A stretch of 48,929 nt of DNA from a virus, in the IMG/VR virus record IMGVR_UViG_3300036785_001048, positions 1 through 48,929 of that record. One strand, written 5' to 3'. Below are positions 21-14,818 of the stretch, piece by piece. Position numbers and translations under genes: made by a program. The number at the start of each line of letters is the position of its first letter. Within the stretch, counting starts at the first letter, position 1. The notes beneath the pieces were generated by a model. That model had not been told where the DNA came from. It saw only the letters and a program-made list of their open reading frames with translations, and ran no database searches.

Positions 21-3000
21 GTGAACTACCGGATGGAACAACCCAAGGAGCCCGAAGGGGAGCTGATCTACCCGAGGGAGTTTGCCCCTATGCAGAGCCG
101 GGAAAAGAGCTTCCCTCCTATGCAGAGGCCAGCGGTCAAAGAGGTCACCCATGCCGGGCTGGCCCTCATGGCGGGCGACACCGGTCGCGTCCTTACCCTC
201 CAGCGGGCTCTAGACGACAAGGACCCGGCAGGTGGCAAGTTTGAGTTCCCGGGCGGGGGCCTGGAGGAAGGCGAGAGCCCGATCGAGGGGGCTATCCGGG
301 AGTGGAAGGAAGAGACGGGCTGCCAACTACCTCCTGGCCAGATTACCCATGATTGGCTTTCCAACGGGATGTACCGGGGTTTCGTGTACGTGGTCCCCGA
401 GGAAAAAGCCTTGGAGATCAACGGTTCTCCCGATGACCGTCAGGTGCTCAACCCTGATGACCCTGACGGTGATTGTCCTGAGGTGGCGCTGTGGATGCAC
501 CCCAAAGACCTAAAGGACCACCCCGCCACTCGCAAAGAGGTCAAGAACGGTACCGACTGGTCGGTGTTCACCAAGGCTCGGAAAAAGACGGCGGCTACCT
601 CAGATGAAGCTGCCATAGCCAACGCTCTGGCTATCCGAGATGAGTACAACAAGAATGCCACTGATTGGGCCGACCATGTCCGGGTACGTGCCGGTCATTT
701 GGAGAACCCCCGGGACGGGAGCCTCAGTTGGCATCATGGCTCCCCGGCTAAGTGGGGCCAAGAGCCCGAAGAGGAAGAATTTGACGACTACGATCGTGAA
801 CCTCCCTCGCAGCACTGGAACACCCATCTCGGTACTCATTGGACCTCGGTCCCTGAAGTAGCCGAACAGTTTGCCAAGGGGAAATACGACAAGACGCGTA
901 CGACTCATGAGGTCAAGGCCGACCCGGGCCAGGTGTACACCGCCAATCTAGGTATCAAAAACCCCAAGGTGTACCGCTCCGAGCACCACATGGACAAGGA
1001 GGCTTACGACCATGCCTGGGAGGGTGAGGACCGCGATTACCCCCATGACCCCGGTCATACTGAGGATTATCCTGATGGTGTCCGGGATAAATATGAGCAC
1101 GACGCGGCACACTGGCTCAGTTCTCATCCTGAGGTCGATGACATAGCTTCAAGTTTCAAGCGCCATCTCCAGTCTCAGGGCCATGATGGGGTAGTTTATG
1201 GTAATGCCGTCGAAGGCCCGCACCTGCACCCCTCGGCCATTACTTTTGATGAAGGCCAGCACCACAATGTCCAGCGGCGGTGGGCCAACCAACCCCGGGA
1301 AGAACAGGGCCGATTGTTTGAGGCCAGGATCGTATCAGCCTATGGTCATATAGCTATGGAAGACCCCGAGTACGGTGGTCACCACCGGCCTATGGAAGGC
1401 CCTCCTCTGCACGATCTGACGGCTGAGGGTGAAGATGGTCAGATGTGGCCTGACGATGTTTATGATCATCCTGAGTGGTACAACTCATCCAGTAGTGAGC
1501 ATTTCCAAGAAGGTGTGCGGGCCATCCATCGGTACCGGGGCAAGCCCGAAGCCATGGCCACCATTTACCGTGCCGCTCCCAAGGGCCTGACCCACATCAA
1601 CCCGGGGGATTGGGTTACTCCGGTAGCCAGCTATGCCCGTCTCCATGGCAGGAAGTCCAAGAGTACTCAGGACTGGCCCATCTACAAAGCTCAGGTCCCG
1701 GCCAAGCATGTCCTCAATGGAGGCATGGAGCCCATGTACGAGTGGGGTTATTCGGGGCCACCGGTCGAGGCCAAGCAACATACCAAGGGTGGCCGTGACG
1801 CCGAATGGCTACGGGGGACCGAGCCCAGCCCCAAGGAAGGGTCAATGAAGCTCCACCTGGCTAGTGACGAGATCGTGGTCCCCCGCAACATCGACACTCT
1901 GCGCGATTCCACTTGTGCCGTGTGCGGGTCGGAAGGCACCATGAACGGGGACCGTTGCACCGTGTGCGGCTATATGGCCACCCCCCAGGCGTTCCAGAGC
2001 CCGGACACCTCCTTGGCCCCCAAGGTGCGCGAGGAGCTGGGGATCGGCAACCCCATGGGGGACGATACCGTAGGAGCCCCGGATTCGGGCCTAGAAGGCC
2101 CTCCAGGGGCCGAAGACGAGCTGGAGGGTATGGGAGAGGGGCCCGAGGGCCTGGAGGGCGAGGAGGGCCTTGAGGGGGGCGGAGACCTGATCTGTGACAA
2201 CTGTGGGGCCACCTTCGACTCCCAGGAGGAAGAAGAAGACCTGTCCGAGCCCTACCTGTCGCCCTCCGCCCGGATTGAGCCCGATGTCTCCGCCCTGGGC
2301 GTCCAGGACGACCTGGAGGTGGCCCGGGACGTGGCCCAGGAGGAGAACCAGGCCGGTACCAATGAGGATGTGGCCTACCAGGAGGGTGACGAATGCCCGG
2401 TGTGCGGGGAGGGCACTCTGGTCCCCAACGAGGAGCCCGAGGGTGAAGAAGAGGGCCTGCCCGGGGAAGAGGGCGAGATGGTAGACGAACAAGGCCCGCC
2501 GGGGGAAGAGGAGCCCGGAGAAGAGGTCGAGGGTGAGCCCCAGGAAGAAGAGCCCGGAGAAGAAGGCCCAGAAGGCGAAGAAGCACCGCCCCAAGCGCAA
2601 GCACCTGACGAAGGGGAAGAAGACCACGAGGACGAAGAAGAAGGAGACGGCCCCCCATTCCGCCGTCGCCAACGGAAGGAGTCAAGTACGATGGCCACCC
2701 AAACCCCCCGGCGCCAAGGTCAGGTCCCCCCGGCCCGCCGCCCTCCCTCGCCTACGCGCCAGGCGACAGCGGCTAACCCCAACCCGGCCGCGGTTGAGCG
2801 CAGGCGCTTGTTCCAGGCCCTGGAGGCGACCGCGGCGGCTATCAACCGCCAGGCCGACCGGCTAGAGGCCCAGGACCGGCTGCTGGCTCAGGTAGGCCAT
2901 TTTGTGCGTCAGGCCCATACCAAGATCTCCGAGCTGAGCGTGCGCAACGAGACCCTGGAGCGCCAGATGGCCCTGGTGGCCAATGCGTCTGGCCTGATGG

Positions 3001-3905
3001 AGCCCTTGGCTACCATTGGGGCTGCCGGTCAGGCCCGGGTGGCCACCCTGTACGGTAAGCGGGCCAACCCGGCCAACCCGGCCCAGCCCGTGCCTGAGCC
3101 TGCTTCGGAGCCTCCCCTGTTCACTTCTCCCGAAGCGGTACAAGCGGCGGGGCGTGACGATGTCACCCAGCTAGGGGCCACGCCGGTATCCGATGTAGCC
3201 GCCGACGCCACTACCGACCTCTCCACTCCCTATGGAGAACTGGCCAATGAGCCGGTGGGGATGAACCGCACCGATGTCACTGCCCCGGTGCAGGGGACCG
3301 AAACGGCTACCCCGCCAGAGATGACGGTCATACCGGTGGACACCCGTATCGGCAACCCTGATGACCCCACGGTGGCTTTCCCCTTTACGGTGGGCCCGGT
3401 AGGGGCGCCGTCCCGGCCCTATCAGGGCCCTTCGGTGGGCAACCCGCCCACTACCGCCGCCCAGCGGCCCGGTGAGCCGGGAGTGGCCGTCCACCCCCAG
3501 GCCCAGGCTCATTACATCGCTTCGGTCAACCTGGCTCGCCTGCGCGCCCAGGTGGGGATCACCAACGAGGAGCCTTTCCAGCTGGGGACCAAGATCGCCG
3601 GTTCTATGACCGACGCCCAGATCAACGCCGAGGCTCAGGGGCTCCAGGCGGTAGCTAGCCGCCAGGCTAACCAGCCTCAGGCCCCGGTGTTCGCCCCTGG
3701 CCTGGCCTTTGAACCGGTCACCTCCATCCCCGATGCCCGGCCCATGGTGCCCCATATGGCCAGTGCCAATGGCAACGGTAGCATCCTGCCCGCCGACCCC
3801 AGCTTCCAGGCTGGTAAGTACGGCCCTGGCCCCGGGTCTGCCATCCAGGCCACCACCATGTTCGCCCCTAGAGAAGACGAGTTTGGCTGGGACTCACCTC
3901 TCTAG
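21..3905 (+). CDS. Mosaic head-module protein: Nudix + ART-like + Cys pairs + scaffold-like C-terminus (5' partial)
   Basis: The reading frame is open to the window edge, so GTG at 21 is only the first start in view and the gene probably begins upstream. A complete Nudix box lies at residues 79-101 (G79, E85, R93-E94, E97-E98, G100), which fits hydrolysis of nucleoside diphosphates linked to another group. Residues ~234-400 look like an ADP-ribosyltransferase fold (HHGSP at 238-242, TSVPEVAEQFA near 280, GHDGVVYGN at 387-395). A second ART-like region at ~480-590 has YRA with R517, GDWVTP, SYA at 537-539 and E574 in EWGY, resembling an R-S-E triad. Cys pairs C632/C635/C646/C649 and C725/C728/C792/C795 suggest zinc ribbons. 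A Glu/Gly/Pro-rich stretch and a probable coiled coil (~920-990) follow. The place before the capsid genes suggests a virion-associated protein. The Nudix call is firm; the ART calls are moderate. Confidence 0.75.
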   Translation: MNYRMEQPKEPEGELIYPREFAPMQSREKSFPPMQRPAVKEVTHAGLALMAGDTGRVLTLQRALDDKDPAGGKFEFPGGGLEEGESPIEGAIREWKEETGCQLPPGQITHDWLSNGMYRGFVYVVPEEKALEINGSPDDRQVLNPDDPDGDCPEVALWMHPKDLKDHPATRKEVKNGTDWSVFTKARKKTAATSDEAAIANALAIRDEYNKNATDWADHVRVRAGHLENPRDGSLSWHHGSPAKWGQEPEEEEFDDYDREPPSQHWNTHLGTHWTSVPEVAEQFAKGKYDKTRTTHEVKADPGQVYTANLGIKNPKVYRSEHHMDKEAYDHAWEGEDRDYPHDPGHTEDYPDGVRDKYEHDAAHWLSSHPEVDDIASSFKRHLQSQGHDGVVYGNAVEGPHLHPSAITFDEGQHHNVQRRWANQPREEQGRLFEARIVSAYGHIAMEDPEYGGHHRPMEGPPLHDLTAEGEDGQMWPDDVYDHPEWYNSSSSEHFQEGVRAIHRYRGKPEAMATIYRAAPKGLTHINPGDWVTPVASYARLHGRKSKSTQDWPIYKAQVPAKHVLNGGMEPMYEWGYSGPPVEAKQHTKGGRDAEWLRGTEPSPKEGSMKLHLASDEIVVPRNIDTLRDSTCAVCGSEGTMNGDRCTVCGYMATPQAFQSPDTSLAPKVREELGIGNPMGDDTVGAPDSGLEGPPGAEDELEGMGEGPEGLEGEEGLEGGGDLICDNCGATFDSQEEEEDLSEPYLSPSARIEPDVSALGVQDDLEVARDVAQEENQAGTNEDVAYQEGDECPVCGEGTLVPNEEPEGEEEGLPGEEGEMVDEQGPPGEEEPGEEVEGEPQEEEPGEEGPEGEEAPPQAQAPDEGEEDHEDEEEGDGPPFRRRQRKESSTMATQTPRRQGQVPPARRPPSPTRQATAANPNPAAVERRRLFQALEATAAAINRQADRLEAQDRLLAQVGHFVRQAHTKISELSVRNETLERQMALVANASGLMEPLATIGAAGQARVATLYGKRANPANPAQPVPEPASEPPLFTSPEAVQAAGRDDVTQLGATPVSDVAADATTDLSTPYGELANEPVGMNRTDVTAPVQGTETATPPEMTVIPVDTRIGNPDDPTVAFPFTVGPVGAPSRPYQGPSVGNPPTTAAQRPGEPGVAVHPQAQAHYIASVNLARLRAQVGITNEEPFQLGTKIAGSMTDAQINAEAQGLQAVASRQANQPQAPVFAPGLAFEPVTSIPDARPMVPHMASANGNGSILPADPSFQAGKYGPGPGSAIQATTMFAPREDEFGWDSPL
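2691..3905 (+). CDS. Possible nested in-frame product: scaffold-like C-terminal third
   Basis: Inside the long mosaic gene an ATG at 2691 is preceded by AAGGAG with a 9-nt spacer. Initiation here would give a 404-residue protein starting MATQTPRRQGQ. It lacks the enzymatic domains and keeps a basic Pro/Arg-rich start, a helical coiled-coil-like stretch and a Pro/Ala/Thr-rich tail ending EDEFGWDSPL. A scaffold encoded as the in-frame 3' part of an upstream head gene is known from lambda C/Nu3. The position two genes before the capsid gene fits. The internal start is inferred from the ribosome binding site and composition only. The alternative is that this is just the C-terminal domain of one long protein. 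Confidence 0.45.
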   Translation: MATQTPRRQGQVPPARRPPSPTRQATAANPNPAAVERRRLFQALEATAAAINRQADRLEAQDRLLAQVGHFVRQAHTKISELSVRNETLERQMALVANASGLMEPLATIGAAGQARVATLYGKRANPANPAQPVPEPASEPPLFTSPEAVQAAGRDDVTQLGATPVSDVAADATTDLSTPYGELANEPVGMNRTDVTAPVQGTETATPPEMTVIPVDTRIGNPDDPTVAFPFTVGPVGAPSRPYQGPSVGNPPTTAAQRPGEPGVAVHPQAQAHYIASVNLARLRAQVGITNEEPFQLGTKIAGSMTDAQINAEAQGLQAVASRQANQPQAPVFAPGLAFEPVTSIPDARPMVPHMASANGNGSILPADPSFQAGKYGPGPGSAIQATTMFAPREDEFGWDSPL

Positions 3906-4093: not shown

Positions 4094-4876
4094 GTGCTGC
4101 AAGTACCGGTGAATATCCCATGGATACACCGCCCCCTTCGCCCCAAGTACGCCTTTACCCAGGCGACCCCGAAGGCTGGGTACCTTGACCCCAACTTTGC
4201 CCGGACAACGCCTGTTTGGCCCGGTATGGCTTTTATGCGGACCTCAGGTGTGGGTTATGCCCAGAACCAACCTCTGGACATCAATGTCATCCCCTACACC
4301 AACAACCCCCTCATGGGCCAGCAGTACGTGGCCACCGGGGCGGAATCGAATTATACCCTGATCGCCAACGGGGCCTCTTCGTGGGGTATCCCGGCGGGCC
4401 TGGTGGGCCAGTACATCGGCGGCGACGGTATCGATGAACTGGTCCAGGTAAACCTGAACGCCATCGCCGTGTGGGTCATGGACTCCGACGCCGAGTTTGA
4501 AGTCTTGGCCCCGGTGTTCGACCCCCAGCTGGCGTGGGCCACGGTAGACCCCGGCAACGGCCAAGACGTCCTTATCTACGCCCGGACAAAATCCTTGGTG
4601 GGGGCTAACTATTCGATAGCCGGTAATGGCGGTAACCCGCTCCAGGTCTACGGGCTCCAGGGCCAGTTGATCTTTGCCCCCGGCAACGCCATCGACACGG
4701 CCCCCAATATGACCACCCCCAACTACGCCACCGCCACCATCTCGGTCCAGCCCATAGCCCGGCTCATTTCGGTGAACAGCCCTCAATCCATAACCATCGG
4801 TGGCCTGACGCCTCGCTTCGCGGCGGCGGGTGCCTGGACCGGTGGCGTGGCCAACAGCAACCCAGGTTCCGCCTAA
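4094..4876 (+). CDS. Putative capsid decoration / head protein
   Basis: A 260-residue protein from GTG 4094, with GAGGAG about 7 nt upstream. It is rich in Gly, Ala, Asn, Pro and aliphatic residues, with few Lys and one Met-rich patch. It has no signal peptide or membrane segment and looks like an all-beta structural protein. I do not recognise the family. The role rests on position: in many phages a decoration protein is encoded just before the major capsid protein. The next gene starts 46 nt downstream with its own ribosome binding site. It could instead be a head fibre or another minor head component. Confidence 0.45.
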   Translation: MLQVPVNIPWIHRPLRPKYAFTQATPKAGYLDPNFARTTPVWPGMAFMRTSGVGYAQNQPLDINVIPYTNNPLMGQQYVATGAESNYTLIANGASSWGIPAGLVGQYIGGDGIDELVQVNLNAIAVWVMDSDAEFEVLAPVFDPQLAWATVDPGNGQDVLIYARTKSLVGANYSIAGNGGNPLQVYGLQGQLIFAPGNAIDTAPNMTTPNYATATISVQPIARLISVNSPQSITIGGLTPRFAAAGAWTGGVANSNPGSA

Positions 4877-4922
4877 GTCCTCTGGGCTACAAGACCCAAA
4901 CCAAGAGAAAGGTATTCATCAA

Positions 4923-5951
4923 ATGAACCAACTTGTAGCCACCGGGTCATCGTGGTTAGCACCGAGGGTGGCGCGTAAGTCCGATGACTACGTGAACGAG
5001 ATCATGCGCCGCCGGGGGGTGTCGACGCCGGGCCTGGCCGGGATGGCCGAAGCGGCCAAGAAGACCACCATGACCCATGAGGCCAAGATGCGCCATTTGG
5101 CCTTGGTCTTGCGTGACCAGGTCAACGGCATCCAGCGCCTGGGCGTGGGCATGATCGGCCCCATCCAGTTGATGCTGCGCTATCAGGGCATTACCCGCAA
5201 CGTGCTGATCGAAGACCCGGTGACGCCGGGTACCCCGGTGATGTACGACGTGTGGGATGACCTGGGGCAGGCCTACATCATGTCCGGGGTGGAAGGTGAA
5301 GTCAGGGTCCAGCCCTTTGAGGGCAAGCGCGTGCAGATCCAGTTCTTCAGGATCGCCTCCCGCCCGGCCATCCGTAAGGAGGACTTGTACTACCTGAGGA
5401 TCAATGCGGTAGAGCAGGCCCAGGACCAGACCAAGCAGGCCATCATGATGCAGGAGGACTCCCACCTCCTGGTCGTCATCCAGGCCGCTCAGGTGGACTA
5501 CGCCACCCGCCCCGACCACACGGTGACTCCTAACCACAACGTGATCGAGGCTAGTGGCTATTTCACCCCACAGTCGCTCTACACCGCAGTGGCGCAGACC
5601 GACATGCATATGCTACCCAGTGGCCGGGTGCTGGTAAATCCCATGGACTACCGGGACTTTTTCCGGTGGGACATCAACACCACTGGCTGGGCCTTCAAAG
5701 ATCGAGTTGTCAGCGGTGAACAGGTGGACTCCTTCGGAGAATTTCAATTCCAAAGGTCCATCATGGTACCTCAAGGAAAAATGTGGGTGCTCCCGAACCC
5801 CGACTTCCTGGGTGCTTTCCCGGTGTTGTATTCGCTGGATGTGGAAGAGAACCACCAGATCGAAAGCTTCTGGAAAGGATGGGTTTTCGATGAGATGATA
5901 AGTTACTTCATCGGCAACCCACGCGGTATCTCCTCGGTCACCAAGAGCTAA
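4923..5951 (+). CDS. Major capsid protein (HK97-fold type)
   Basis: A 342-residue protein starting MNQLVATGSSW. ATG 4923 was preferred to the in-frame ATG at 4830, which lies inside the preceding gene; an AGAAAGG precedes 4923. The sequence resembles major capsid proteins of large actinobacterial phages: a charged N-terminal helical arm (VARKSDDYVNEIMRRRG, residues ~15-32), then a mixed alpha/beta body (VTPGTPVMYDVWDDLGQAYI and FRIASRPAIRKEDLYYLR). The C-terminal part (PNPDFLGAFPVLYSLDVEEN, then a Trp-rich end) resembles the A-domain of other capsid proteins. It follows the putative scaffold and decoration genes and ends 20 bp before a strong terminator, as expected for the most expressed late gene. 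Gene order strengthens the call. Confidence 0.8.
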   Translation: MNQLVATGSSWLAPRVARKSDDYVNEIMRRRGVSTPGLAGMAEAAKKTTMTHEAKMRHLALVLRDQVNGIQRLGVGMIGPIQLMLRYQGITRNVLIEDPVTPGTPVMYDVWDDLGQAYIMSGVEGEVRVQPFEGKRVQIQFFRIASRPAIRKEDLYYLRINAVEQAQDQTKQAIMMQEDSHLLVVIQAAQVDYATRPDHTVTPNHNVIEASGYFTPQSLYTAVAQTDMHMLPSGRVLVNPMDYRDFFRWDINTTGWAFKDRVVSGEQVDSFGEFQFQRSIMVPQGKMWVLPNPDFLGAFPVLYSLDVEENHQIESFWKGWVFDEMISYFIGNPRGISSVTKS

Positions 5952-5971
5952 CCTCGGGCATAAGTTAGCGG

Positions 5972-6004
5972 AAAAGGAGGCTCCTTCGGGAGCCTCCTTT
6001 TTTT
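5972..6004 (+). terminator. Intrinsic terminator after the capsid gene
   Basis: AAAAGGAGGCTCC (5972-5984), TTCG tetraloop, GGAGCCTCCTTTT (5989-6001): a 13-bp perfect stem with the T-run continuing to 6004. It closes the head operon and isolates the following cassette. Confidence 0.95.
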
Positions 6005-6175
6005 GTTCAACTTCTCATCCTGCTCTAGTTCCAGGCTGGTGCTCTTAGGCAAGAAACCCTTGTAGTCATTACAGAATTGGCTATGGTCAATGGTCCATTT
6101 GGACTATGGCGGACGACCTATTTGAGGGGTAAGAATGCTAGCTGGCGGGTAACCCAAAATAAGAAAGGGACTTTG
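6005..6175 (+). promoter_or_regulatory. Leader of the peptide cassette; promoter presumed
   Basis: The 171 bp between the capsid terminator and the secreted-peptide gene should hold a promoter, because transcription from upstream is stopped. The best candidate I see is TATGGT (6082-6087) with TTGTAG (6060-6065) at a 16-bp spacing, but the match is weak. No other structure was recognised. Confidence 0.3.
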
Positions 6176-6388
6176 ATGAAGAAGTATGCCATGTCCCTGT
6201 TCGCTTCGACTGTTGCTACTACCGTGGCCATGGTCTGCCTGGTGGCGCCCGCGACCCCGGCCTCGGCCTTTGTACTGTGCCCCCAGGCCCGGTTTTGCCC
6301 GGAGGTCAGCGCTACCTATGCCCCACCTATTTACCCCATTCGGGGTGGGTGTAATTTCTGTGGCCCGCCCATAGTCTTTGCTTCATAA
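6176..6388 (+). CDS. Small secreted cysteine-containing peptide
   Basis: A 70-residue precursor from ATG 6176, chosen over ATG 6077 because AAGAAAGGGA lies just upstream and the protein then begins with a textbook signal peptide: KK, a hydrophobic stretch (residues 8-24) and an ASA site after residue 31. The predicted 39-residue mature form is Pro-rich with four Cys (35, 41, 59, 62) as CxxxxxC and CxxC, so one or two disulfides are possible outside the cell. It is the first gene between two terminators and precedes the leader-peptide pair. I recognise no family. It may be a cell-envelope or extracellular effector. An unmodified secreted bacteriocin or a surface-binding immunity factor are alternatives. 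Confidence 0.65.
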   Translation: MKKYAMSLFASTVATTVAMVCLVAPATPASAFVLCPQARFCPEVSATYAPPIYPIRGGCNFCGPPIVFAS

Positions 6389-6389
6389 G

Positions 6390-6407
6390 CGTGAGCATGC
6401 ACTCACG
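6390..6407 (+). promoter_or_regulatory. Hairpin ahead of precursor gene 1
   Basis: CGTGAG (6390-6395) pairs with CTCACG (6402-6407) around CATGCA. It lies directly upstream of an ideal AAAGGAGGTGA ribosome binding site and may protect or separate the precursor cistron. Confidence 0.4.
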
Positions 6408-6427
6408 GGAAAGGAGGTGAAACATAA

Positions 6428-6616
6428 ATGATTACCAAGGAACTCGCTCTACTCGATGAGGAAGAGGCTACTCTTCTCCCCGCCCGTCAGACCCTCGGTC
6501 TGTTCGATTTCGCCCTCATCAGCGCGTCGAACACGTCGGTAGCCCTGAACAGCGTTACGCTGCTTTCCGCAGCCATCTCCAACGCCGGTCAGACCATCGT
6601 TGTCGTCCAGCACTGA
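6428..6616 (+). CDS. RiPP-like precursor peptide 1 (conserved leader, hydrophobic core)
   Basis: A 62-residue peptide with a near-perfect Shine-Dalgarno (AAAGGAGGTGA). Residues 6-22 read LALLDEEEATLLPARQT and match 15 of 17 positions in the next gene, while the rest does not align. That is the usual split of a RiPP or bacteriocin precursor into recognition leader and variable core. The C-terminal ~40 residues are hydrophobic, rich in Ser, Thr, Asn and Ala, and lack Cys, Lys and Arg. This suggests a membrane-active or self-assembling peptide rather than a Cys-based lanthipeptide. The M50/RRE gene two cistrons downstream would be the natural leader-binding partner. No modifying enzyme is visible nearby. 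The precursor role is inferred from architecture and context. Confidence 0.6.
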   Translation: MITKELALLDEEEATLLPARQTLGLFDFALISASNTSVALNSVTLLSAAISNAGQTIVVVQH

Positions 6617-6651
6617 GGTGCTCTCGGTCCACTAGGGCCCTTCTAGCACCT
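6616..6651 (+). promoter_or_regulatory. Hairpin between the two precursor genes
   Basis: AGGTGCT (6616-6622) pairs with AGCACCT (6645-6651), with a 22-nt apical region, just before the ribosome binding site of precursor 2. Hairpins therefore precede both precursor cistrons. Confidence 0.4.
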
Positions 6652-6666
6652 TGAAGGAGGTGAACC

Positions 6667-6861
6667 GTGGATAATCTCGCCTTACTCGATCAGGAGGAGG
6701 CTAGCCTCCTGCCTGCTCGCCAAACCATGCTGACAATAGTGCTGCCGACGATTGAAGTCGCTAATGTCATAGGGGCAAATTTCGCCATTGCTATCAATGC
6801 CGGGACAATTGCTGCTATGGCAACGGCAACGGCAACGCAGACACTTACTGCCAGTTTGTAA
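6667..6861 (+). CDS. RiPP-like precursor peptide 2 (paralogue of precursor 1)
   Basis: A 64-residue peptide from GTG 6667, with AAGGAGGTGA upstream. Residues 4-20 repeat the leader LALLDQEEASLLPARQT found in precursor 1. At the 15 identical positions 9 codons differ synonymously, so the leader is conserved as protein and is not a recent DNA duplication. The core (residues 21-64) is a long hydrophobic Ile/Ala/Val/Thr stretch ending in Thr/Ala-rich sequence, again without Cys, Lys or Arg, and it does not align with the core of precursor 1. Only 16 bp separate it from the M50 gene, so co-transcription is likely. Alternatives are a pair of two-component pore-forming peptides or holin-like peptides. 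Confidence 0.6.
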   Translation: MDNLALLDQEEASLLPARQTMLTIVLPTIEVANVIGANFAIAINAGTIAAMATATATQTLTASL

Positions 6862-6877
6862 CCACCGGGGGAGCCGC

Positions 6878-8398
6878 ATGCCCCAGTCCGAAGAACTGGT
6901 ACCTCGGTTGGCTGAAGGTGTGCGGCTCCTCGGGGCCTACGATTCGCAGGGTCTTACCAAGCCCAAGTTTATCGCCCAACGGCCCGATGGCCAAGTCGTC
7001 TTGTTGTCGGCGCTGCTGTACATTACGGCGACCTTTCTGGACGGGAGCCCCCTAGACCTCGTTGCCACCCATGTCAGCGAAGCCCAGGAGAGGCCCCTCA
7101 CGTCCATCGAGGTGGCCTATCTGGCCGAAACCAAGCTCATCCCTATGGGCCTGGTGGCGCTGCCCTCCAGTGCCCTTGTAGAGGCCCCTAAGGCTGCCCC
7201 CATCCTGGGCATGGCCGGGAGGGCCTTCCTGCCCGGCAAAGTGGTCCGGGTTTTCGCCTGGGCTTTACGCCCGCTGTTCTGGTGGCCGGTGGTCATCGTG
7301 GTCCTGGTTATGGCCGTCCTGGCCAATGTGTGGGCCTTTACTTCCCAGCCCGTGCTCGGTTCTTTGGGGGTCATGCTCTTACATCCTGCCTATTTGCTGG
7401 GAGCCTTTGGCCTGTTGTTCCTGGCCACCCTGTTCCATGAGCTGGGCCACGCCACCGCTTGTCGTTATGCGGGTGGGCGACCGGGGGCTATCGGGGCCGG
7501 GGTGTACATGTTTTTCCCGGCCTTTTACACCGATGTCACCGATAGTTACCGGCTAAAACGAAGAGCCCGGCTGCGCGTCGACCTGGGTGGGGTGTACTTC
7601 AACACCATCTGGATCGTTGGCGCAGCCATTGCTTACCATTTCAGCCCCTACCCGCCGCTCTTGGTCATCCTGGCCATGTCCAACCTGGTCATTATCCAAC
7701 AGTTATTACCGGTGGTCCGTTTCGACGGCTACTGGGTGTTGTCTGATTTAGTAGGAGTACCGGACCTATTCGCCCGCATCAAACCAGCTTTTCGGTCCAT
7801 CCGGCACCTGAAGCGCCCATCCGACCTGACCTGGAAGGCCACCATCATCGTGACCACCTGGGTGGTCATCATCGTGCCCTTATTGCTGGGCGGGATGGTC
7901 TTGACCATCAAGCGGATGCCCAGCTTTATGGAGCACAACTACACCAGTTTCTTGAGTTACTACCACACGGGCTATACCAGTGCGGTCCACGAGCAGTGGA
8001 GTGCCACTGCTTTGGCCGGGCTCATGATGCTGTTCCTGTGCCTGCCGGTGCTGGGCATAAGCATCATGGTCTATCGCACCGGGCGCACCACCGGGGCCTT
8101 GGTCATCGCCAAGCTGCCCAAGCCCTACCGCCCCGTCCATATGCTGAGGGAGCCGCCCAGTGTAGACGAGGACGAGCCCTATGTGCTCAGCCTCTTACGG
8201 CCATCACACCAGCCCATCCGGTTCACCCGGACGTACATGCCGCCCCGGCCCCTACCCCACAAACCTCGGCCCATAGACCCAAGTTGGCCTGCTATCAACC
8301 GGCGGTACGAGTGGTGGGAAGTGACACCCGACGAAGAGGAACAGTGGAACTGGGACCATAGCCCTGAGTACATGAGGCGGCGACCGCCTAAGAATTAG
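6878..8398 (+). CDS. M50-family membrane metallopeptidase with RRE/PqqD-like N-terminus
   Basis: A 506-residue protein; ATG 6878 is chosen because GGGGGAG precedes it and it follows the precursor stop by 16 bp. Residues ~1-95 (VPRLAEGVRLLG, KPKFIAQRPDGQVV, LSALLYITATFLDG) resemble the PqqD/RRE-like domain that binds RiPP leaders. A transmembrane helix (~130-155) and a second ending in HELGH (187-191) give the site-2-protease zinc site; the third ligand is probably D283 in FDGYW. The FPAFYTDVTDSYRL segment is typical of the putative peptide zinc metalloprotease group. More membrane segments follow, then a soluble Pro-rich tail. It probably binds the shared leader and cleaves or exports-and-cleaves the two peptides. 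The M50 call is firm; the RRE assignment and substrate are inference. Confidence 0.85.
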   Translation: MPQSEELVPRLAEGVRLLGAYDSQGLTKPKFIAQRPDGQVVLLSALLYITATFLDGSPLDLVATHVSEAQERPLTSIEVAYLAETKLIPMGLVALPSSALVEAPKAAPILGMAGRAFLPGKVVRVFAWALRPLFWWPVVIVVLVMAVLANVWAFTSQPVLGSLGVMLLHPAYLLGAFGLLFLATLFHELGHATACRYAGGRPGAIGAGVYMFFPAFYTDVTDSYRLKRRARLRVDLGGVYFNTIWIVGAAIAYHFSPYPPLLVILAMSNLVIIQQLLPVVRFDGYWVLSDLVGVPDLFARIKPAFRSIRHLKRPSDLTWKATIIVTTWVVIIVPLLLGGMVLTIKRMPSFMEHNYTSFLSYYHTGYTSAVHEQWSATALAGLMMLFLCLPVLGISIMVYRTGRTTGALVIAKLPKPYRPVHMLREPPSVDEDEPYVLSLLRPSHQPIRFTRTYMPPRPLPHKPRPIDPSWPAINRRYEWWEVTPDEEEQWNWDHSPEYMRRRPPKN

Positions 8399-8425
8399 CC
8401 GACCTATGACGGTGGGACGGTGCTT

Positions 8426-8467
8426 GGAGGGAGATGGGGTGTGCTCAGCCCATCTCCCTCCTTTTTT
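8426..8467 (+). terminator. Intrinsic terminator closing the peptide cassette
   Basis: GGAGGGAGATGGG (8426-8438) and CCCATCTCCCTCC (8449-8461) form a perfect 13-bp stem with a 10-nt loop, followed by six T. Together with the terminator at 5972 it makes 6005-8467 a self-contained transcription unit. Confidence 0.95.
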
Positions 8468-8497
8468 GTCTCCGGGAATTTTTTCTGCTCAGGTGAC

Positions 8498-8763: not shown

Positions 8764-9771
8764 TTGGCCTACAAGACTATTGCGGCAGCTGAAATGCTGT
8801 TGCAATCCAATACGAAGGACTTGTGGACGCTTGCCGACGCAGTCCTTGCCGACGTACCCGCGGAAGGGCGGGGAGGTGATCGGAGCAAAGGCCCCGCGCG
8901 TGGCCTTTGGGTCGGGGAGCGCTTAGAAGAGATCGCCACCGACCTAACGGAGCGTGGTGTCACCAAGTTGGACGGGGACCCGTATTCAGCTTCGACATTA
9001 GACCATGCCCGTGACACAGCTATCAATTGGTCGCCCGAGCAGCGTTTATCCGAAGCAGCCTACCGTACCCATCAGGAGGCGGGATCAGCTAAGTCTGAGG
9101 GTGGTAAAGTCCTGCGGGCCTTGTGCCATATAGCCCGAGGGCTGAAGGTCCATCGCCCGGCTGGGGTTGATGTAGCGGCGTGGGAAAAGGCAGTCGAGCA
9201 AGTAATGAGGAAACGTGGCTTGTCTCGCCGCTACTTGGTAGCAGCCAACGACTTGCGCCTGGCTATGGGCCACTTGCCAAATGTCCCTGGTCGGGAGGCA
9301 CCCCCCCAAACCCGTCAAGAGCGCATCGCCATAACCCGCGAAGTCATAACCGACCCGGATGCGGTTACCGAGCTAATGAGCCATAAGCCGACTCGTCGGG
9401 CTGCGGCAGAAGCAATTTCTAATGCGCGTCATCAAGATGCCGAGCACATACGCCAAGTTCACCCGGAGCTGCCCCCCAAGCGGGACATTGACCCCGCTGA
9501 CCGTCCTGTTGGCCCCCGTAATGGTGTGGGTCTGCTCCTGATCTTGGAGAAATTGGGCCTTCACACTGACGAGGCCCGCAAATTGGCTCGTGCCGTCTTA
9601 GAAGGTTATGAAGGCATCAAGGAGCTGATCAGCGACGAGGATCGCGACATCCTCCTGGAGGAAGTGCAGTTGGCGGTCAATGCCTGGCAGATGGTCCATA
9701 CCGGTATCAGCGGTGGTGGAGCTACCGATGAAGCCCTGGAGGAGATCCTTCGTGGTGGCAGACAAGCCTGA
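8764..9771 (+). CDS. Putative DNA-binding regulator
   Basis: A 335-residue soluble protein from TTG 8764, supported by AAGGAGG 6 nt upstream. The N-terminal half (WTLADAVLAD, LEEIATDLTERGV, then YSASTLDHARDTA, then an Arg-rich stretch) recalls actinobacterial helix-turn-helix proteins of the RacO/DUF6192 kind, where an HTH is followed by a helical part. The C-terminal half is charged and helical (LEKLGLHTDEARKLARAVLEGYEGIKEL) and may mediate dimerisation. An array of inverted TTGTCA motifs lies upstream and a hairpin follows the stop. Repression of its own promoter or a partition role are possible. The family match is from memory and the exact function is unknown. Confidence 0.45.
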   Translation: MAYKTIAAAEMLLQSNTKDLWTLADAVLADVPAEGRGGDRSKGPARGLWVGERLEEIATDLTERGVTKLDGDPYSASTLDHARDTAINWSPEQRLSEAAYRTHQEAGSAKSEGGKVLRALCHIARGLKVHRPAGVDVAAWEKAVEQVMRKRGLSRRYLVAANDLRLAMGHLPNVPGREAPPQTRQERIAITREVITDPDAVTELMSHKPTRRAAAEAISNARHQDAEHIRQVHPELPPKRDIDPADRPVGPRNGVGLLLILEKLGLHTDEARKLARAVLEGYEGIKELISDEDRDILLEEVQLAVNAWQMVHTGISGGGATDEALEEILRGGRQA

Positions 9772-9778
9772 CCTTATT

Positions 9779-9803
9779 AGTGCCGGGGTTTGGCCCCGGC
9801 ACT
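9779..9803 (+). terminator. Hairpin after the regulator gene (terminator-like)
   Basis: AGTGCCGGGG (9779-9788), TTTGG loop, CCCCGGCACT (9794-9803): a perfect 10-bp GC-rich stem. It has no real T-run, so termination may be partial. Confidence 0.5.
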
Positions 9804-9842
9804 GTTCCATCCCCAAAACAGAAAGGAAACAGATAACTCACC

Positions 9843-10358
9843 GTGAGTACCAAAATGGATGACCAAGTAATGGCGGTTTTCAATGCTGTTGCTAACAACC
9901 GCTGCGCCACTTATCAGGATATCGCAGACCATTCCGAAATGAACCTGGCCGACGTGAGTAACACTCTGGTGTACCTGCGTAAGCCCGAGAACGCCCTACA
10001 GTTCGGCTTTACCATCCCTCATGTCAAGCGTGGTCGTCCCGGCATAGACTGGAATACCGGCGAGGACATCGACCGTCGTTTCGTGGTTGTCGGCCTCGAT
10101 GGGGCGGTCTTGGAGCCTGAGGACCGCAATCTGGTCCGCCTGGGGTGCTGGGCCACCATGGGCCACACCACCACCATGTGCTACAACGAGAGCCACGCTT
10201 TGTCATTGGCGGCCAAGATGGCCCCTGACCGCCTGACAAAAACGTTGTTCAACCGTGCAGCAAAGACCCTCGATTTCATAGCTGACACTATGGCCGAGGC
10301 TTTAGAGCAGGACAAGGCTCGTCAAAAAGACATTGCCGTCAATGGTGCTACTTCCTGA
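9843..10358 (+). CDS. Putative winged-helix DNA-binding protein
   Basis: A 171-residue protein from GTG 9843; AAAGGA lies about 15 nt upstream and an alternative in-frame ATG is at 9855. Residues ~8-45 (VMAVFNAVANNRCATYQDIADHSE, MNLADVSNTLVYLRK) read as a winged helix-turn-helix, and the following segment contains GRPGIDW and a beta-rich wing. The C-terminal third is an Ala-rich helix. It is likely a small transcriptional regulator working with its upstream neighbour. No ligand-binding domain is evident, and I do not recognise the exact family. Confidence 0.45.
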   Translation: MSTKMDDQVMAVFNAVANNRCATYQDIADHSEMNLADVSNTLVYLRKPENALQFGFTIPHVKRGRPGIDWNTGEDIDRRFVVVGLDGAVLEPEDRNLVRLGCWATMGHTTTMCYNESHALSLAAKMAPDRLTKTLFNRAAKTLDFIADTMAEALEQDKARQKDIAVNGATS

Positions 10359-10397
10359 CCTCTCCTGACCTTATCAGACCCTAAGCCACTTGTACAT

Positions 10398-10427
10398 GTC
10401 AGATCCGTCAGTACTGACGGATCTGAC
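10398..10427. repeat. 30-bp perfect palindrome
   Basis: GTCAGATCCGTCAGT (10398-10412) is followed directly by its exact reverse complement (10413-10427). It lies between the winged-helix gene and the next small gene and carries CCGTCAG/CTGACGG units that recur at 48394-48448. Candidate roles are a repressor operator, a cruciform, or an RNA hairpin with almost no loop. Confidence 0.7.
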
Positions 10428-10452
10428 GGTTTCACCGAATGGAAGGAACCGA

Positions 10453-10854
10453 ATGAGTTACTATTTGACCGAGTGGGGAGGGGCGGCAAACGACAAGTCG
10501 TACAAGTACGCTGGTTCGTTGATCATCACCGGGCCCTTCGACACCCAAGCCGACGCCTGGGACTTCTGCCAGGTCATCAACGACGATGTGTACGGCACCG
10601 AGTTCCATGGCCCCAAGGACTTTGCCGTGCTCCAGGGTCACATTGAGAGCACCAGCGGTACTGAGGACCGTGACCCATTGGGTGGTAGCGGGGGGCTATG
10701 CACTCCTCAGAAGAGGCTTCAGGATGAGTACGATCTGGAGTATTACCCTGGGGGCCCAGATGACATGATGCCGGAACCTCTTACCACCATCGAGCGGTGG
10801 TGGCCTACTTATCGTCAGGACTGGCAGGCAGCACAAGAAGTCCCGACCGCCTAG
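10453..10854 (+). CDS. Hypothetical protein
   Basis: A 133-residue acidic protein. ATG 10453 (MSYYLTEWGG) is preferred over 10390 because GGAAGGA lies 7 nt upstream and the earlier start falls in front of the 30-bp palindrome. It has a compact N-terminal region (SLIITGPFDTQADAWDFCQVIN) with a DTQADAW pattern seen in many small phage proteins, then an acidic Asp/Glu/Pro-rich tail. It has no signal peptide or membrane helix. It lies between two palindromic elements in the non-structural island. I do not recognise the family. Confidence 0.55.
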   Translation: MSYYLTEWGGAANDKSYKYAGSLIITGPFDTQADAWDFCQVINDDVYGTEFHGPKDFAVLQGHIESTSGTEDRDPLGGSGGLCTPQKRLQDEYDLEYYPGGPDDMMPEPLTTIERWWPTYRQDWQAAQEVPTA

Positions 10855-10859
10855 ATTGA

Positions 10860-10892
10860 GTGACAGACTGTCTAAGTTGGACAGTCTGTCAC
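10860..10892. repeat. Inverted repeat, related copy at 48343
   Basis: GTGACAGACTGTC (10860-10872) and GACAGTCTGTCAC (10880-10892) pair perfectly around TAAGTTG. Its central 19 bp (10867-10885) match 16 of 19 bases of the element at 48343-48361, 37 kb away. It follows the stop of the 10453 gene and has no T-run. Confidence 0.65.
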
Positions 10893-10898
10893 AAGGCG

Positions 10899-10929
10899 CT
10901 GACAGATTGTCCTCTCTTTGTGCCATACT
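10899..10929 (+). promoter_or_regulatory. Candidate promoter for the gene at 10962
   Basis: CTGACA (10899-10904), 19-bp spacer, CATACT (10924-10929), followed by a short leader with AAGGAGA before ATG 10962. It sits just after the inverted repeat, which could act as its operator. Confidence 0.35.
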
Positions 10930-10961
10930 GGGTCTCCTAAGTCTAACCAAGGAGAGTAACT

Positions 10962-11396
10962 ATGAAGATGTCCGATATCGAAGTCGGCCAGGAGTATGCT
11001 TGCGGTACCAAAGGGCGTTGGACAACCTATAGGCGCGCCCATGCCCTGGAGCTGGGTCGACACCGGGTCCTAGATGATGAAGAGAGCAAGCCCGTCCCCG
11101 CCGCCCGGGTCAAGTTCGATGATGGCACCATCCAATGGGTGGTCCTCCGGTCAGTCGTCATGCCCTGGTCGGAGTACGAAGCGGCAGTGTCCAATGTGGA
11201 CAGAGCCCTGTATGACCAGATCGTGAACGGCCCCACCCGAAGTGAGCGGGCGCGCTTCGTGGTGAAAGAGCTGGGCGAGGTTGGCTTCGATACCGGGACG
11301 CCTCCTTTTGAGCTGGTGAACGAGTCTTCTTCCATCGGTGGGTTTGTGCGAGTCAAGGTGGAGTTCTTGGAGGATGTCCTCGACGCTTTGACTTAG
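10962..11396 (+). CDS. Hypothetical protein
   Basis: A 144-residue protein from ATG 10962 with AAGGAGA upstream. The N-terminus (MKMSDIEVGQEYACGTKG, then RHRVLDDEESKPVPAARVKFDDGTIQWVV) looks like a small beta-barrel of the kind seen in phage proteins that read VGKEYAxRE. The C-terminal half is helical and charged. It is the last gene of the non-structural island before virion appendage genes. The function is unknown; a nucleic-acid-binding barrel is possible. Confidence 0.55.
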   Translation: MKMSDIEVGQEYACGTKGRWTTYRRAHALELGRHRVLDDEESKPVPAARVKFDDGTIQWVVLRSVVMPWSEYEAAVSNVDRALYDQIVNGPTRSERARFVVKELGEVGFDTGTPPFELVNESSSIGGFVRVKVEFLEDVLDALT

Positions 11397-11445
11397 GGGC
11401 TCAGAGCAGACCAAGAAGCAGTAACGTCTGTCTAAAGGAGCCTCA

Positions 11446-11919
11446 GTGCCGCATTCACTCACAGTCCGCAACCCTCTGCCGACCGGGGTGGTCAGCCTGA
11501 CTATCCCCTCGGTGGAGGGTTTTGGCATACCTGCCCTGCCGGGGCAGACCCTGGTCCTGGACGATATCTCGTTTTCCCGTATCCCGTCGTACTGGTTCGG
11601 GACCGGTAACAGCTTCGGGGCCCCACTCATGATCGACAATGGTGCGATCAACCCCGGTGTCCCGGCCCCGACATTGTCCGGGGTAGCCCCGGTCACCGCC
11701 CCGCACGGGACGGGCACCGCGGTAACTCTCACCGGTACCTTCTTCACGGGTGCTACCCAGGTCTTGTTCAACGGGGTCGCAGCTACTGGTGTATCGGTCA
11801 CCAACTCCACCACCATTGCCTGCACCACCCCGGTAGTGGGCGCGGCCGGTCCTGCCGTCGTCCAGGTCGTCACCCCTGGTGGCGTGGCTACCCTTTCCAG
11901 CGGCTTCTCCTTCACCTAG
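11446..11919 (+). CDS. IPT/TIG-domain virion protein
   Basis: A 157-residue protein from GTG 11446, with AAAGGAG 8 nt upstream. Residues ~75-157 form an IPT/TIG immunoglobulin-like domain (PTLSGVAPVTAPHGTGTAVT, LTGTFFTGATQVLFNG, ending TPGGVATLSSGFSF). Such domains decorate phage heads, tails and fibres and often bind carbohydrate weakly. The N-terminal part may anchor it to the virion. It opens a block of appendage and neck genes and shares its fold with the protein two genes downstream. Confidence 0.7.
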   Translation: MPHSLTVRNPLPTGVVSLTIPSVEGFGIPALPGQTLVLDDISFSRIPSYWFGTGNSFGAPLMIDNGAINPGVPAPTLSGVAPVTAPHGTGTAVTLTGTFFTGATQVLFNGVAATGVSVTNSTTIACTTPVVGAAGPAVVQVVTPGGVATLSSGFSFT

Positions 11920-11961
11920 TATCGGGGCGACCCGCAAGGACAACTAGCTGAGGAGGCGGTC

Positions 11962-12486
11962 ATGCCTGACACCGTACCGGTTGTAAACGAGCGCAAGGAC
12001 TTGGTGTCCTTGGTGCACATGGGCCCTCAGGGGCGGGAAGAGTACATCTGGCAGTCCCACGGGGTGGGTACCGGGGAAGACCTACTGGAGCTGCCGGTGT
12101 ACGTCACCGAGAACCCTAATTTTCGGCGCCAACAGCGCCGGGGGATCTTGCGCGTCCTGTCCCCTGAGGAATTTGCCGCCTGGCAGCGCCCCTCTTACGA
12201 CAACTGGGTGGCGAACCAGGAGGCCGAAACGGCCAAGCTGATGGCTGGTATGGACCGCTCCCCCCAGGAGTACATCCTGCAAAAGGCGTGTATCGCCCCG
12301 GAGGCGGGGAAACCTTGTGCCGCCTTGGTCACGGTCAGGCATACCGAAGAGACCCAGCGCCCGCCGCTGTGTGACCGCCATACCCATCTCCAGAGCTATT
12401 GCGTCCTCACGGTGGACGAGTCCATCGCCCCCGCCCCGGGCCAGTCCAACCTGGTGTGGAAGTTCTTAGGCCAGGCCCCCCGATGA
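11962..12486 (+). CDS. Hypothetical protein with Cys/His cluster
   Basis: A 174-residue protein from ATG 11962 with GAGGAGG upstream. The N-terminal half contains RREEYIWQSHG-like charged sequence and a segment reading ILRVLSPEEFAAWQRP. The C-terminal part holds Cys and His (KACIAPEAGKPC, then LCDRHTHLQ) that could bind zinc. Its stop overlaps the next start (ATGA), so translation is coupled to the second IPT/TIG protein. It is probably a small structural or assembly protein; the family is not recognised. Confidence 0.6.
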   Translation: MPDTVPVVNERKDLVSLVHMGPQGREEYIWQSHGVGTGEDLLELPVYVTENPNFRRQQRRGILRVLSPEEFAAWQRPSYDNWVANQEAETAKLMAGMDRSPQEYILQKACIAPEAGKPCAALVTVRHTEETQRPPLCDRHTHLQSYCVLTVDESIAPAPGQSNLVWKFLGQAPR

Positions 12487-13391
12487 GCGACACCAAGCCT
12501 GTGGAACAACATCACCTTCGCCCCGCTGCCAATCAGCGGGATGTCCCCAGCCCAACCGACGAGGTCCCTGAAGGGTATACGCCCCCCATGACCCATGGGG
12601 GTTTGTACGTGGACCCCAATCATACGCCCCGGTTGGCTGACCGGTTGGGTTCAGTCAGGACCGATGCCCTGGTACATGAGCACTGGCCCCGTGATATTGC
12701 TCCTGTTTTTTACCCGGACCTGCCCAATTCGTTCTGGTTGGATGTCCCCGGTGAGGCGCCTGAGCCCCCTTCGAGCCCGCCTGATATCATCGACCCTCCT
12801 GCGGTAACCTCTTGTGACCCAAACTTCGGTGGTGTGGGCACCGTAGTCACCTTGACCGGTACGAACTTCTTCGACCCTGTAACCGTCCAGTGGACTGATG
12901 GGACCAACACCTACGCCAGTACCTCGGTAACCATAATAAATACCACCGAGGTCACCGCCGATGCCAATGTGGGGTCCAAGAAAAATTCCAGGTGGACCGT
13001 GATAGTCACTACTCTTGTTGGTCAAGCCTCGCTGGACAACGCCTTCCAGTGTGATGGCACCCTGCTTACGGGTTACATTCCGATAGAGCCCTTCCCTGAC
13101 CCCTCAGACGCCCTCCAGGCGCAAGAGGCACCTAACCCCGCGCCCGAGGCCCTCGGAGGCTCTGGAGGCACTACAGACCCCTCTCCTGCTACTACAGAGG
13201 GCCCTACCGAGATCAACATCCAAGCGGACCAGGTCACGGTCCAAGCTGATGAGGTCACTGTCCAAGGTCCCGAAGTCTCCTCCGAGGGCACTACAGAGCC
13301 TTCTGAAGAAGCCGAGCAGGTTGAGATGACCGAGTACGAGATGGACCAGATGTGGGGGATCACCGAACCTGGAGCTGAACCTGAGCCTTAG
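12483..13391 (+). CDS. IPT/TIG-domain protein with acidic, repeat-bearing tail
   Basis: A 302-residue protein. ATG 12483 is chosen because it overlaps the preceding stop as ATGA. Residues ~100-195 form an IPT/TIG domain (PAVTSCDPNFGGVGTVVTLT, GTNFFDPVTVQWTDG). The rest is low complexity: Pro/Glu/Thr-rich with short repeats ADQVTVQ, ADEVTVQ, GPEVSS. Glu-rich C-termini of this type are common in phage appendage proteins. It is likely a head or neck decoration working with the 11446 product and the following collagen-like fibre. Confidence 0.6.
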   Translation: MSDTKPVEQHHLRPAANQRDVPSPTDEVPEGYTPPMTHGGLYVDPNHTPRLADRLGSVRTDALVHEHWPRDIAPVFYPDLPNSFWLDVPGEAPEPPSSPPDIIDPPAVTSCDPNFGGVGTVVTLTGTNFFDPVTVQWTDGTNTYASTSVTIINTTEVTADANVGSKKNSRWTVIVTTLVGQASLDNAFQCDGTLLTGYIPIEPFPDPSDALQAQEAPNPAPEALGGSGGTTDPSPATTEGPTEINIQADQVTVQADEVTVQGPEVSSEGTTEPSEEAEQVEMTEYEMDQMWGITEPGAEPEP

Positions 13392-13420: not shown

Positions 13421-14818
13421 ATGGCGTTTACCCAGATCACCCTGGTCCACAGTTTCGAGACAAACGGCGGGTTCTTGACCTCGGTCCTGTCCGAGCCCAT
13501 GACCAATGGGACCCTGACCATCCCCAACGCGCCGCAAAATCATCAGTTGGAAGCCAATGGGGACATGAGCGTTACCCTGGAGGCGACCGACGACCCCGGG
13601 ACGACGACGGAGTCGGGCCAGCCGCCCACCTACAGTCTCTACCTCCAGCTTCCCGGAGCCCCCCAGCAGGTGGTAGTGACGGCGCTGCCTTCGGGGGCGC
13701 CGCTGGGGGTCATCGACTGGGACGAACTGCCCCTGACCGCAGGTGAGATCCCACCTGCCGCTCCCCAGACCATCATGACCCTGGGCGATGTCCTGGTATC
13801 GGGGAACCCGTCCGGGCCTGACAACGTCCTGTACTCGACGTCGACCACCGAGGCTACCTGGGGCACCTTGACCACGGTGGGCATCCAGGAGGAGCTGACC
13901 CCCTCGGCCCCTCTGGGTATCACCCTGGGCGGTACCGGCAATACTACGGGCTCGCCGGTAGGGGCGGCGAGCGGCGACCTGTCCGGGAACTACCCCGGCC
14001 CTCAGGTTACCACTACCCATCTGGCTGCCCCGTTGCCGATAAGCCAGGGAGGCACGGGGACGACCACCGGGGCCATGGCCATGCAAGTGGGGGGCGACCT
14101 GGGTGGGTACTTGCCCGACCCGGCAGTAGTAGCCCTGTCCGGGGTGGGGGTCTTTTTCCCCGCCGCCGCACCCGCTTCGACTACGGGCCAGACCGGTAAC
14201 TGGGCCTTTTCCCAGAACGGCACTATCTATTTCAAGGCCAGTGGGGGCTGGGTACCGTATACCACCTCTGGCCCTCAAGGGTCACAGGGGGCCATCGGGT
14301 CACAGGGGGGTATGGGGCCTCAGGGGCCTCAGGGTGCTCAAGGGGCATCCTCCAGCGTGGCCGGTCCTCAGGGCTCTCAGGGGCCTCAGGGCTCATCTGG
14401 GGCACAGGGCTCAGCGGGGGCTGCCGTCACCGGGCCCCAAGGTGTCCAAGGCGCTCAAGGCGCCCAGGGCGCGGTGGGGGTTCAAGGGGGCCAGGGCGTC
14501 CAGGGCGCTCAGGGGGCTCAGGGCGCGGCGGGGGCGGCGGTTACCGGGCCGCAGGGCGCTCAAGGCTACCAGGGCGTCCCCGGGGCCCAGGGCGTTCAAG
14601 GTACTCAAGGCGTCCAGGGTACTCAAGGCGTACAAGGTGTCCAGGGGCCCGCCGGGGCCGCGGTCACAGGACCGCAAGGGGCGCAGGGTACCCAGGGCGT
14701 CCAGGGCGTCCAGGGGTACCAGGGCGCGGCTATTACCGGATCTCAGGGCCCGCAAGGAGCCCAGGGGTCTCAAGGGGCTTTGGGCTCGCAAGGCCCTCAA
14801 GGGCCGCAGGGGGTTTAG
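13421..14818 (+). CDS. Collagen-like fibre protein
   Basis: A 465-residue protein from ATG 13421 with GGAGG upstream. The N-terminal ~170 residues are probably the virion-attachment domain. Two tail-fibre-type units follow (LGGTGNTTG with GDLSGNYPGPQV, then QGGTGTTTG with GDLGGYLPDPAV), then from ~285 to the C-terminus a Gly-X-Y tract of about 60 triplets with Gln almost always third. Collagen-like tracts in phage proteins form trimeric rods. No folded tip follows the tract, which is unusual because a C-terminal trimerisation domain is common. It may be a head fibre or an adhesin for mucus or surface sugars. Confidence 0.75.
   Translation: MAFTQITLVHSFETNGGFLTSVLSEPMTNGTLTIPNAPQNHQLEANGDMSVTLEATDDPGTTTESGQPPTYSLYLQLPGAPQQVVVTALPSGAPLGVIDWDELPLTAGEIPPAAPQTIMTLGDVLVSGNPSGPDNVLYSTSTTEATWGTLTTVGIQEELTPSAPLGITLGGTGNTTGSPVGAASGDLSGNYPGPQVTTTHLAAPLPISQGGTGTTTGAMAMQVGGDLGGYLPDPAVVALSGVGVFFPAAAPASTTGQTGNWAFSQNGTIYFKASGGWVPYTTSGPQGSQGAIGSQGGMGPQGPQGAQGASSSVAGPQGSQGPQGSSGAQGSAGAAVTGPQGVQGAQGAQGAVGVQGGQGVQGAQGAQGAAGAAVTGPQGAQGYQGVPGAQGVQGTQGVQGTQGVQGVQGPAGAAVTGPQGAQGTQGVQGVQGYQGAAITGSQGPQGAQGSQGALGSQGPQGPQGV
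14272..14815 (+). repeat. Gly-X-Gln collagen-like coding repeat
   Basis: About 60 imperfect 9-bp units (GGN NNN CAG/CAA) encode Gly-X-Gln triplets, broken at intervals by short GAAVTGPQG modules that suggest duplication of larger blocks. The region is prone to expansion and contraction. Confidence 0.8.

Follow-up and report, generated by a model that had tools for sequence, protein, structure and literature searches.

Several described systems bear on the locus analysed here, a small cassette in a 48.9 kb stretch of phage DNA (the window, that is, the whole stretch under analysis): (i) daptides; (ii) epipeptides; (iii) pearlins; and (iv) curli-type fibres. In the daptide system, MpaP removes the leader, and daptides encoded by a single cluster cooperate in their action on membranes (PMC10036551). 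As in the phage cassette, the daptide protease MpaP/DapP (NF041824; PMC10036551) consists of an N-terminal RRE fused to an intramembrane site-2 protease, and daptide loci also encode short paralogous precursors (about two per locus) with hydrophobic cores. Daptide leaders offer a further likeness in an E-L-E motif (ELExMEAP) close to the start, but the phage leader carries LLPxR against the daptide ELExMEAP and, while daptide precursors end in a C-terminal Thr, phage peptides 1 and 2 finish in QH and SL, respectively.

Regarding epipeptides, YydF permeabilises membranes (PMC7026026), and EpeP is thought to both cut and export (PMC10885120). The yydFGHIJ/epeXEPAB loci (PMC7026026, PMC10885120) resemble the cassette in having a membrane M50 peptidase thought to cut the leader and release the peptide. 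The phage, in contrast, has paired precursors whose leader is unrelated and whose core is of the beta type, and its window has neither a radical SAM nor an ABC gene. In the pearlin systems, the substrate of the membrane M50 peptidase (TglG/TmoG) is a small peptide that serves as scaffold or precursor (PMC10885120). But while TglG/TmoG remove a single modified C-terminal residue, the phage-type family conserves a whole core of 40 residues.

Curli-type subunits are built from short beta units with evenly spaced Asn, Gln, Ala and Ser on one face, and have a secreted partner with similar repeats. Both traits have likenesses in the family described below, whose assembly is putative. Nevertheless, curli uses Sec and CsgG, whereas phage-type peptides are one unit each and would follow a leader-guided site-2 protease route; no curlin match was obtained in Pfam.

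When scored against curated families, the phage protease reaches 109.4 bits with the NCBIfam daptide_HExxH model (NF041824; cutoff 300) and 45 bits with the LiaK/YydH model (NF058609; cutoff 225). Neither a class III aminotransferase (PF00202) nor a radical SAM protein (PF04055) nor an ABC ATPase was found in the window. Since both the cutoffs and the defining enzymes fail, the two labels were rejected: the daptide identity on its score, the missing C-terminal Thr and the missing aminotransferase in the window, and the epipeptide identity on its score and the missing radical SAM epimerase in the window.

The phage and its post-capsid cassette

The window is an IMG/VR virus record that encodes a contractile tail: tail sheath, baseplate and tail fibre genes were recognised with PHROGs, and helicases lie near the right end. 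The major head protein (4830-5951; phrog_2522, 1e-93) is 51-55% identical to the capsids of Mycobacterium, Gordonia and Rhodococcus phages, and these relatives belong to the Bxz1-like (Ceeclamvirinae), Finchvirus and Stormageddonvirus phages. Because the genomes of these relatives measure about 135-155 kb, the window probably corresponds to about one third of a genome. The source virus is an actinobacterial phage with a contractile tail and, by analogy with its cultured relatives, its lifestyle may be lytic.

Behind the capsid gene, between two terminators, lies the cassette, whose features, all on the plus strand, are the following:

5972-6004, plus strand: intrinsic terminator, left border, after the major capsid gene; hairpin followed by 7 T
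6176-6388, plus strand: plausible small secreted Cys peptide; signal peptide, then CPQARFC and CNFC (translation)
6428-6616, plus strand: precursor peptide 1 (class A); leader MITKELALLDEEEATLLPARQT; core ..SASNTSVALN...SAAISNAGQTIVVVQH
6667-6861, plus strand: precursor peptide 2 (class B, GTG start); leader VDNLALLDQEEASLLPARQT; core ..VANVIGANFAIAINAGTI..ATATATQTLTASL
6878-8398, plus strand: RRE-M50 site-2 protease, 506 amino acids; 36-43% identity to actinobacterial homologues
6905-7153, plus strand: predicted RRE (PqqD-like winged-helix) domain, residues ~10-92 (AF2, Foldseek, profile HMM)
7436-7450, plus strand: HELGH zinc-binding motif, residues 187-191; HExGH in 82 of 82 cellular homologues
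7718-7732, plus strand: RFDGY motif, residues 281-285; R[FL]DG[YF] in 78 of 82 cellular homologues
8426-8461, plus strand: intrinsic terminator, right border; hairpin followed by 6 T

An earlier reading of the letters alone (hereafter, the sequence-only reading) had placed strong terminators on both sides of the cassette and had called it a moron. Folding bears out the two terminators (-25.9 kcal/mol, z -4.8, for 5965-6010; -31.8 kcal/mol, z -5.4, for 8420-8475), each with its T run; a simple consensus scanner detected neither of them. No sigma-70 consensus was found upstream of 6176 in a scan that covers actinobacterial promoters poorly, and PADLOC gave no match. The term moron also fits, as the unit is self-contained and bounded by terminators, and relatives have other genes in the same slot: HyRo has an HNH endonuclease there, Stormageddon a ribonucleotide reductase, Finch small ORFs, and the nearest IMG/VR contigs (L086, L088) unrelated ORFs. 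The cassette is accessory cargo that occupies this variable post-capsid slot. No RRE-M50 was found in the Bxz1-like, Finchvirus and Stormageddonvirus actinophages, no second viral copy was found in IMG/VR (by protease and peptide) or INPHARED (by protease), and 72 related phage loci gave no precursor peptide match at E<0.01.

Other observations concern the surroundings. In the close relative L088, an HNH-like and then a TnpB-like transposon ORF (1404-3716; family assigned by eye) follow the capsid gene. Upstream of the capsid gene, the window encodes a protein of 1294 amino acids (21-3905) with PHROGs matches to Nudix hydrolase (43-112) and "ParB C-terminal domain" (409-587); at the same place, cultured relatives have a capsid maturation protease or large hypothetical proteins. 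Between the cassette and the tail fibre gene at 13421, a run of ORFs (8764-13391) has no PHROGs matches.

The sequence-only reading had counted the Cys peptide as a part of the unit. Its ORF is a plausible secreted one, as judged from the translation, but only position links it to the family: it has no homologue in Pfam/NCBIfam nor among the small ORFs of cellular loci and, having no counterpart in any locus examined, it was rejected as a family member.

Protease, leaders and their cellular family

The protease most likely starts at the ATG at 6878. Its Pfam M50 score (16.4 bits) is below the 26-bit cutoff; hydrophobic segments surround both HELGH and RFDGY, D283 of the latter is presumed to be the third zinc ligand of site-2 proteases, and 69 of the 81 columns conserved at ≥90% in cellular homologues are retained. 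Regarding the N-terminus, in which an RRE/PqqD-like domain had been proposed, AF2 modelling of residues 1-125 with 54 relatives gave a b-b-b-a-a-a arrangement with a core pLDDT >95; the alignments used for AF2 exclude plasmid-derived rows. Foldseek against the PDB placed PqqD (5sxy) first and TbiB1 (5v1u, with leader) second, followed at lower ranks by lasso B1 (6jx3), TruD (4bs9) and CteB (5why), all with modest E-values (0.02-0.3). The main competitor that is not an RRE, the 680-residue enzyme GdmN, superimposes with an rmsd of 7-10 Å versus 3.1 Å for PqqD, and the top PDB match of the sequence profile is again PqqD (3g2b, E=0.017). The structure check thus agrees with the proposal, the N-terminus being predicted to have a PqqD/RRE-type fold.

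The two peptides are paralogues with a common leader, ALLDxEEAxLLPARQT, and a strong Shine-Dalgarno sequence (AAGGAGGTGA) stands ahead of each (ribosome binding sites AAAGGAGGTGAA for peptide 1 and GAAGGAGGTGAAC for peptide 2). Their cores are hydrophobic and nearly devoid of positive charge, and neither Pfam nor NCBIfam holds a curated family for them. An HMM built from 60 cellular peptides, with no phage sequence, finds both among 4942 ORFs (E=1.7e-15 and 3.9e-13, respectively), while the next-best ORF of the window reaches only E=3.1; hence, these peptides, already recognised as a leader-bearing pair in the sequence-only reading, are not chance ORFs. The closest cellular counterparts of peptide 1 are of class A, from Kribbella, Sinomonas and Nocardioides (48-57% identity), and those of peptide 2 are of class B, from Nocardioides and Kribbella (43-47%).

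Scanning 84,980 species, each represented by a single genome, yielded 446 relatives of the protease; the 80 retained are actinobacterial, with a few Chloroflexi MAGs. The cellular loci were selected by the protease alone, not by the peptide. Peptides were detected with the cell-only HMM (E<1e-3) at 75 of 83 loci, window included, and most of the remaining 8 have a more divergent LPxR peptide. In the reverse direction, the peptide profile was run against 297 Actinomycetota genomes and matched 17, with the protease nearby in 15; as for the exceptions, one genome has the secreted partner (see below) alone nearby and the other match lies at a contig end. Leader and M50 gene hence occur together, as was to be checked, strongly in both directions. 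Furthermore, the peptides are almost confined to the protease locus in four whole genomes, many cellular loci have 2-5 near-copies of the peptide, and every one of the 148 aligned peptides has L17, P18 and R20 of the leader motif LxPxR.

These sequence relationships place the cassette in a family that numbers over 400 loci and is actinobacterial, with some members in Chloroflexi. No description of the leader or the family was found in the open-access literature, which omits most subscription journals, and the cellular system is widespread but apparently unstudied. The sequence-only reading knew of no precursor pair with a dedicated peptidase inside a phage head module; the unit is not specific to the phage, nor a phage invention, but this cellular system captured intact. 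The same reading had seen no modifying enzyme, and this agrees with the cellular loci, where no modification or immunity gene is conserved (no decarboxylase, methyltransferase or ABC family is kept), as well as with the three families missing from the window. For this very reason, its RiPP-like label remains unproven in the strict sense.

In a maximum likelihood tree, the phage protease groups with those of Gandjariella, Kribbella, Sinomonas and Nocardioides (SH-aLRT 97), on a long branch of 1.75 changes per site. The gene order, A-B-protease, is the same in the phage, Kribbella and Nocardioides. Since the unit lines up gene by gene with the Kribbella/Nocardioides-type loci, peptide 1 with class A, peptide 2 with class B and the protease last, it was most likely acquired whole, long ago, and its uptake from an actinobacterium is very probable. 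The GC content of the cassette (57.6% for 6001-8000) is inside the phage range of 56-67% and, in consequence, a long residence in the phage can be proposed.

Some further ORFs were noticed at the cellular loci. A small conserved ORF lies upstream of streptomycete loci, often on the opposite strand (about 35 loci, e.g., L050 1666-1929, minus strand); it matches no known family and is possibly a regulator or an unrelated neighbour. An AfsR/SARP-like regulator ORF, recognised by eye, is found upstream of the Sinomonas locus (L010 1810-2715), with relatives in about 9 loci. Finally, a Streptomyces spiroverticillatus ORF (L063 3428-3745) keeps the leader LLPDREAL in front of a core of His/Pro/Ala repeats, which suggests that cores can be swapped behind one leader.

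Peptide cores and the secreted CxxC protein

Conservation in the core falls on every second residue (entropy 1.01 versus 2.72 bits, permutation p 5e-5). The conserved positions are N35, S/A37, A39, N41 ... S47, A49, S/A51, A53, Q55, I57, I/V59 and Q61, and the even positions are hypervariable. This alternation suggests a beta-strand with one constrained face that may stack. The beta reading rests on the conservation pattern, because AF2 gives the peptide no confident fold: modelling of peptide 1 with 32 relatives yielded a pTM of 0.29 and no PDB match, a result on a lone peptide that neither supports nor refutes assembly.

In most cellular loci (61 of 82), the RRE-M50 is accompanied by a conserved secreted protein that carries NxAxA..CxxC..A..Q repeats, ends in a helical-looking C-terminus and corresponds to no confident Pfam or NCBIfam family. 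Examples are:

L006, 5653-6345: secreted CxxC-repeat protein
L010, 2715-3473: secreted CxxC-repeat protein
L004, 7788-8480: secreted CxxC-repeat protein
L019, 5811-6413: secreted CxxC-repeat protein

The repeat of this protein and the peptide core can be aligned in register, although weakly (hhalign P=5e-4, probability 32%). From the period-2 core and the in-register repeat, we infer an extracellular beta-assembly; that the peptides assemble in this way at the surface is a tentative proposal. Neither the HMM nor the repeat pattern revealed a counterpart of the CxxC protein in the phage window. This does not exclude membership in the family, since the contig is a fragment and 21 of the 82 cellular loci have no such protein either; given the fragmentary contig, absent partner genes may lie elsewhere in the phage genome.

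Processing, release and possible roles

The proposed mechanism has three steps: (i) the N-terminal RRE of the protease would bind the precursor leaders, chiefly through the LxPxR segment, as its fold and the co-conservation suggest; (ii) the intramembrane zinc site (HELGH plus D283) would cut the hydrophobic precursor behind the leader, as expected from knowledge of the protease family, and the protease itself, rather than an ABC exporter, would deliver the core outside, as proposed for EpeP/YydH; and (iii) with no chemical modification, the released cores would be beta-strand peptides with one conserved Asn/Ala/Ser/Gln face, able to associate with each other. In cells, a further probable partner of the cores at the outer surface would be the secreted CxxC-repeat protein. 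For the phage, the most likely effect of the peptides would be a capped or altered surface of the infected cell, superinfection exclusion and interference with the host's own assembly being the leading candidate roles.

The steps of this proposal differ in how firmly they can be held. Leader-guided processing by the M50 protease is highly likely, and processing and release as a whole, leaving aside the biological role, can be considered probable. That a modifying enzyme is not needed is somewhat less secure, though still fairly likely. Superinfection exclusion, in turn, is a rather doubtful role. The most complete version of the model is more doubtful still: RRE-guided intramembrane proteolysis would export pairs of unmodified beta-peptides which polymerise extracellularly, curli-like, on a secreted CxxC-repeat template, as an assembly route of actinobacteria, the phage having taken the peptide-plus-protease half of the system in order to remodel or cap the cell surface.

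The sequence-only reading had suggested membrane-active peptides as a possible product, and two cooperating antimicrobial peptides of the epipeptide or daptide type could indeed kill competitors or depolarise the infected host. The relationship of the protease to the daptide MpaP and the epipeptide YydH/LiaK models, the hydrophobic phage cores, the cooperation of daptides on membranes (PMC10036551) and the permeabilisation caused by YydF (PMC7026026) point in that direction. Nevertheless, the window has no epimerase, aminotransferase or immunity ABC gene, the cellular loci conserve neither a modification nor an immunity gene, and the cores, with almost no positive charge, show a strict alternation and an Asn/Gln conservation that are ill-suited to an amphipathic or transmembrane helix. 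They look like alternating beta-strand peptides and not like typical membrane-active helices, which makes this explanation unlikely.

A role as pheromone-like signals for the host population or co-infecting phages is harder still to defend. Small, paired and probably released peptides with hypervariable even core positions would suit such a function, and AfsR/SARP-like regulator ORFs, recognised by eye, adjoin some cellular loci (that of Sinomonas, for instance). But no conserved receptor gene lies beside the peptides, many loci carry 2-5 near-copies, and the N/A/Q face kept across phyla argues for a structure rather than for a receptor-specific sequence; as a consequence, signalling seems improbable. 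It is very improbable, in turn, that the cassette is passive host DNA or the product of a mis-assembled contig, without use to the phage. A single phage record has it, and the downstream ORFs tested, up to about 13.4 kb, are orphans; however, one contig holds the phage capsid gene upstream and the tail genes downstream, the GC content is that of the phage, and the three ORFs are intact, with their invariant residues kept, despite the long branch of the protease.

To our knowledge, RRE-peptidase fusions have been studied until now as the final step of RiPP pathways with modifying enzymes. In the family described here, hundreds of actinobacterial loci combine such a fusion with nothing but precursors and, in most cases, a single secreted partner. 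This suggests that an RRE can recognise leaders for the sole purpose of processing and export. The cassette is, in addition, a new sort of cargo for Bxz1-like actinophages, and the phage copy, which comprises just two peptides and one protease, represents the system in its smallest natural form; with its three genes, well-defined leader motif and well-defined active site, it is a handy unit for tests.
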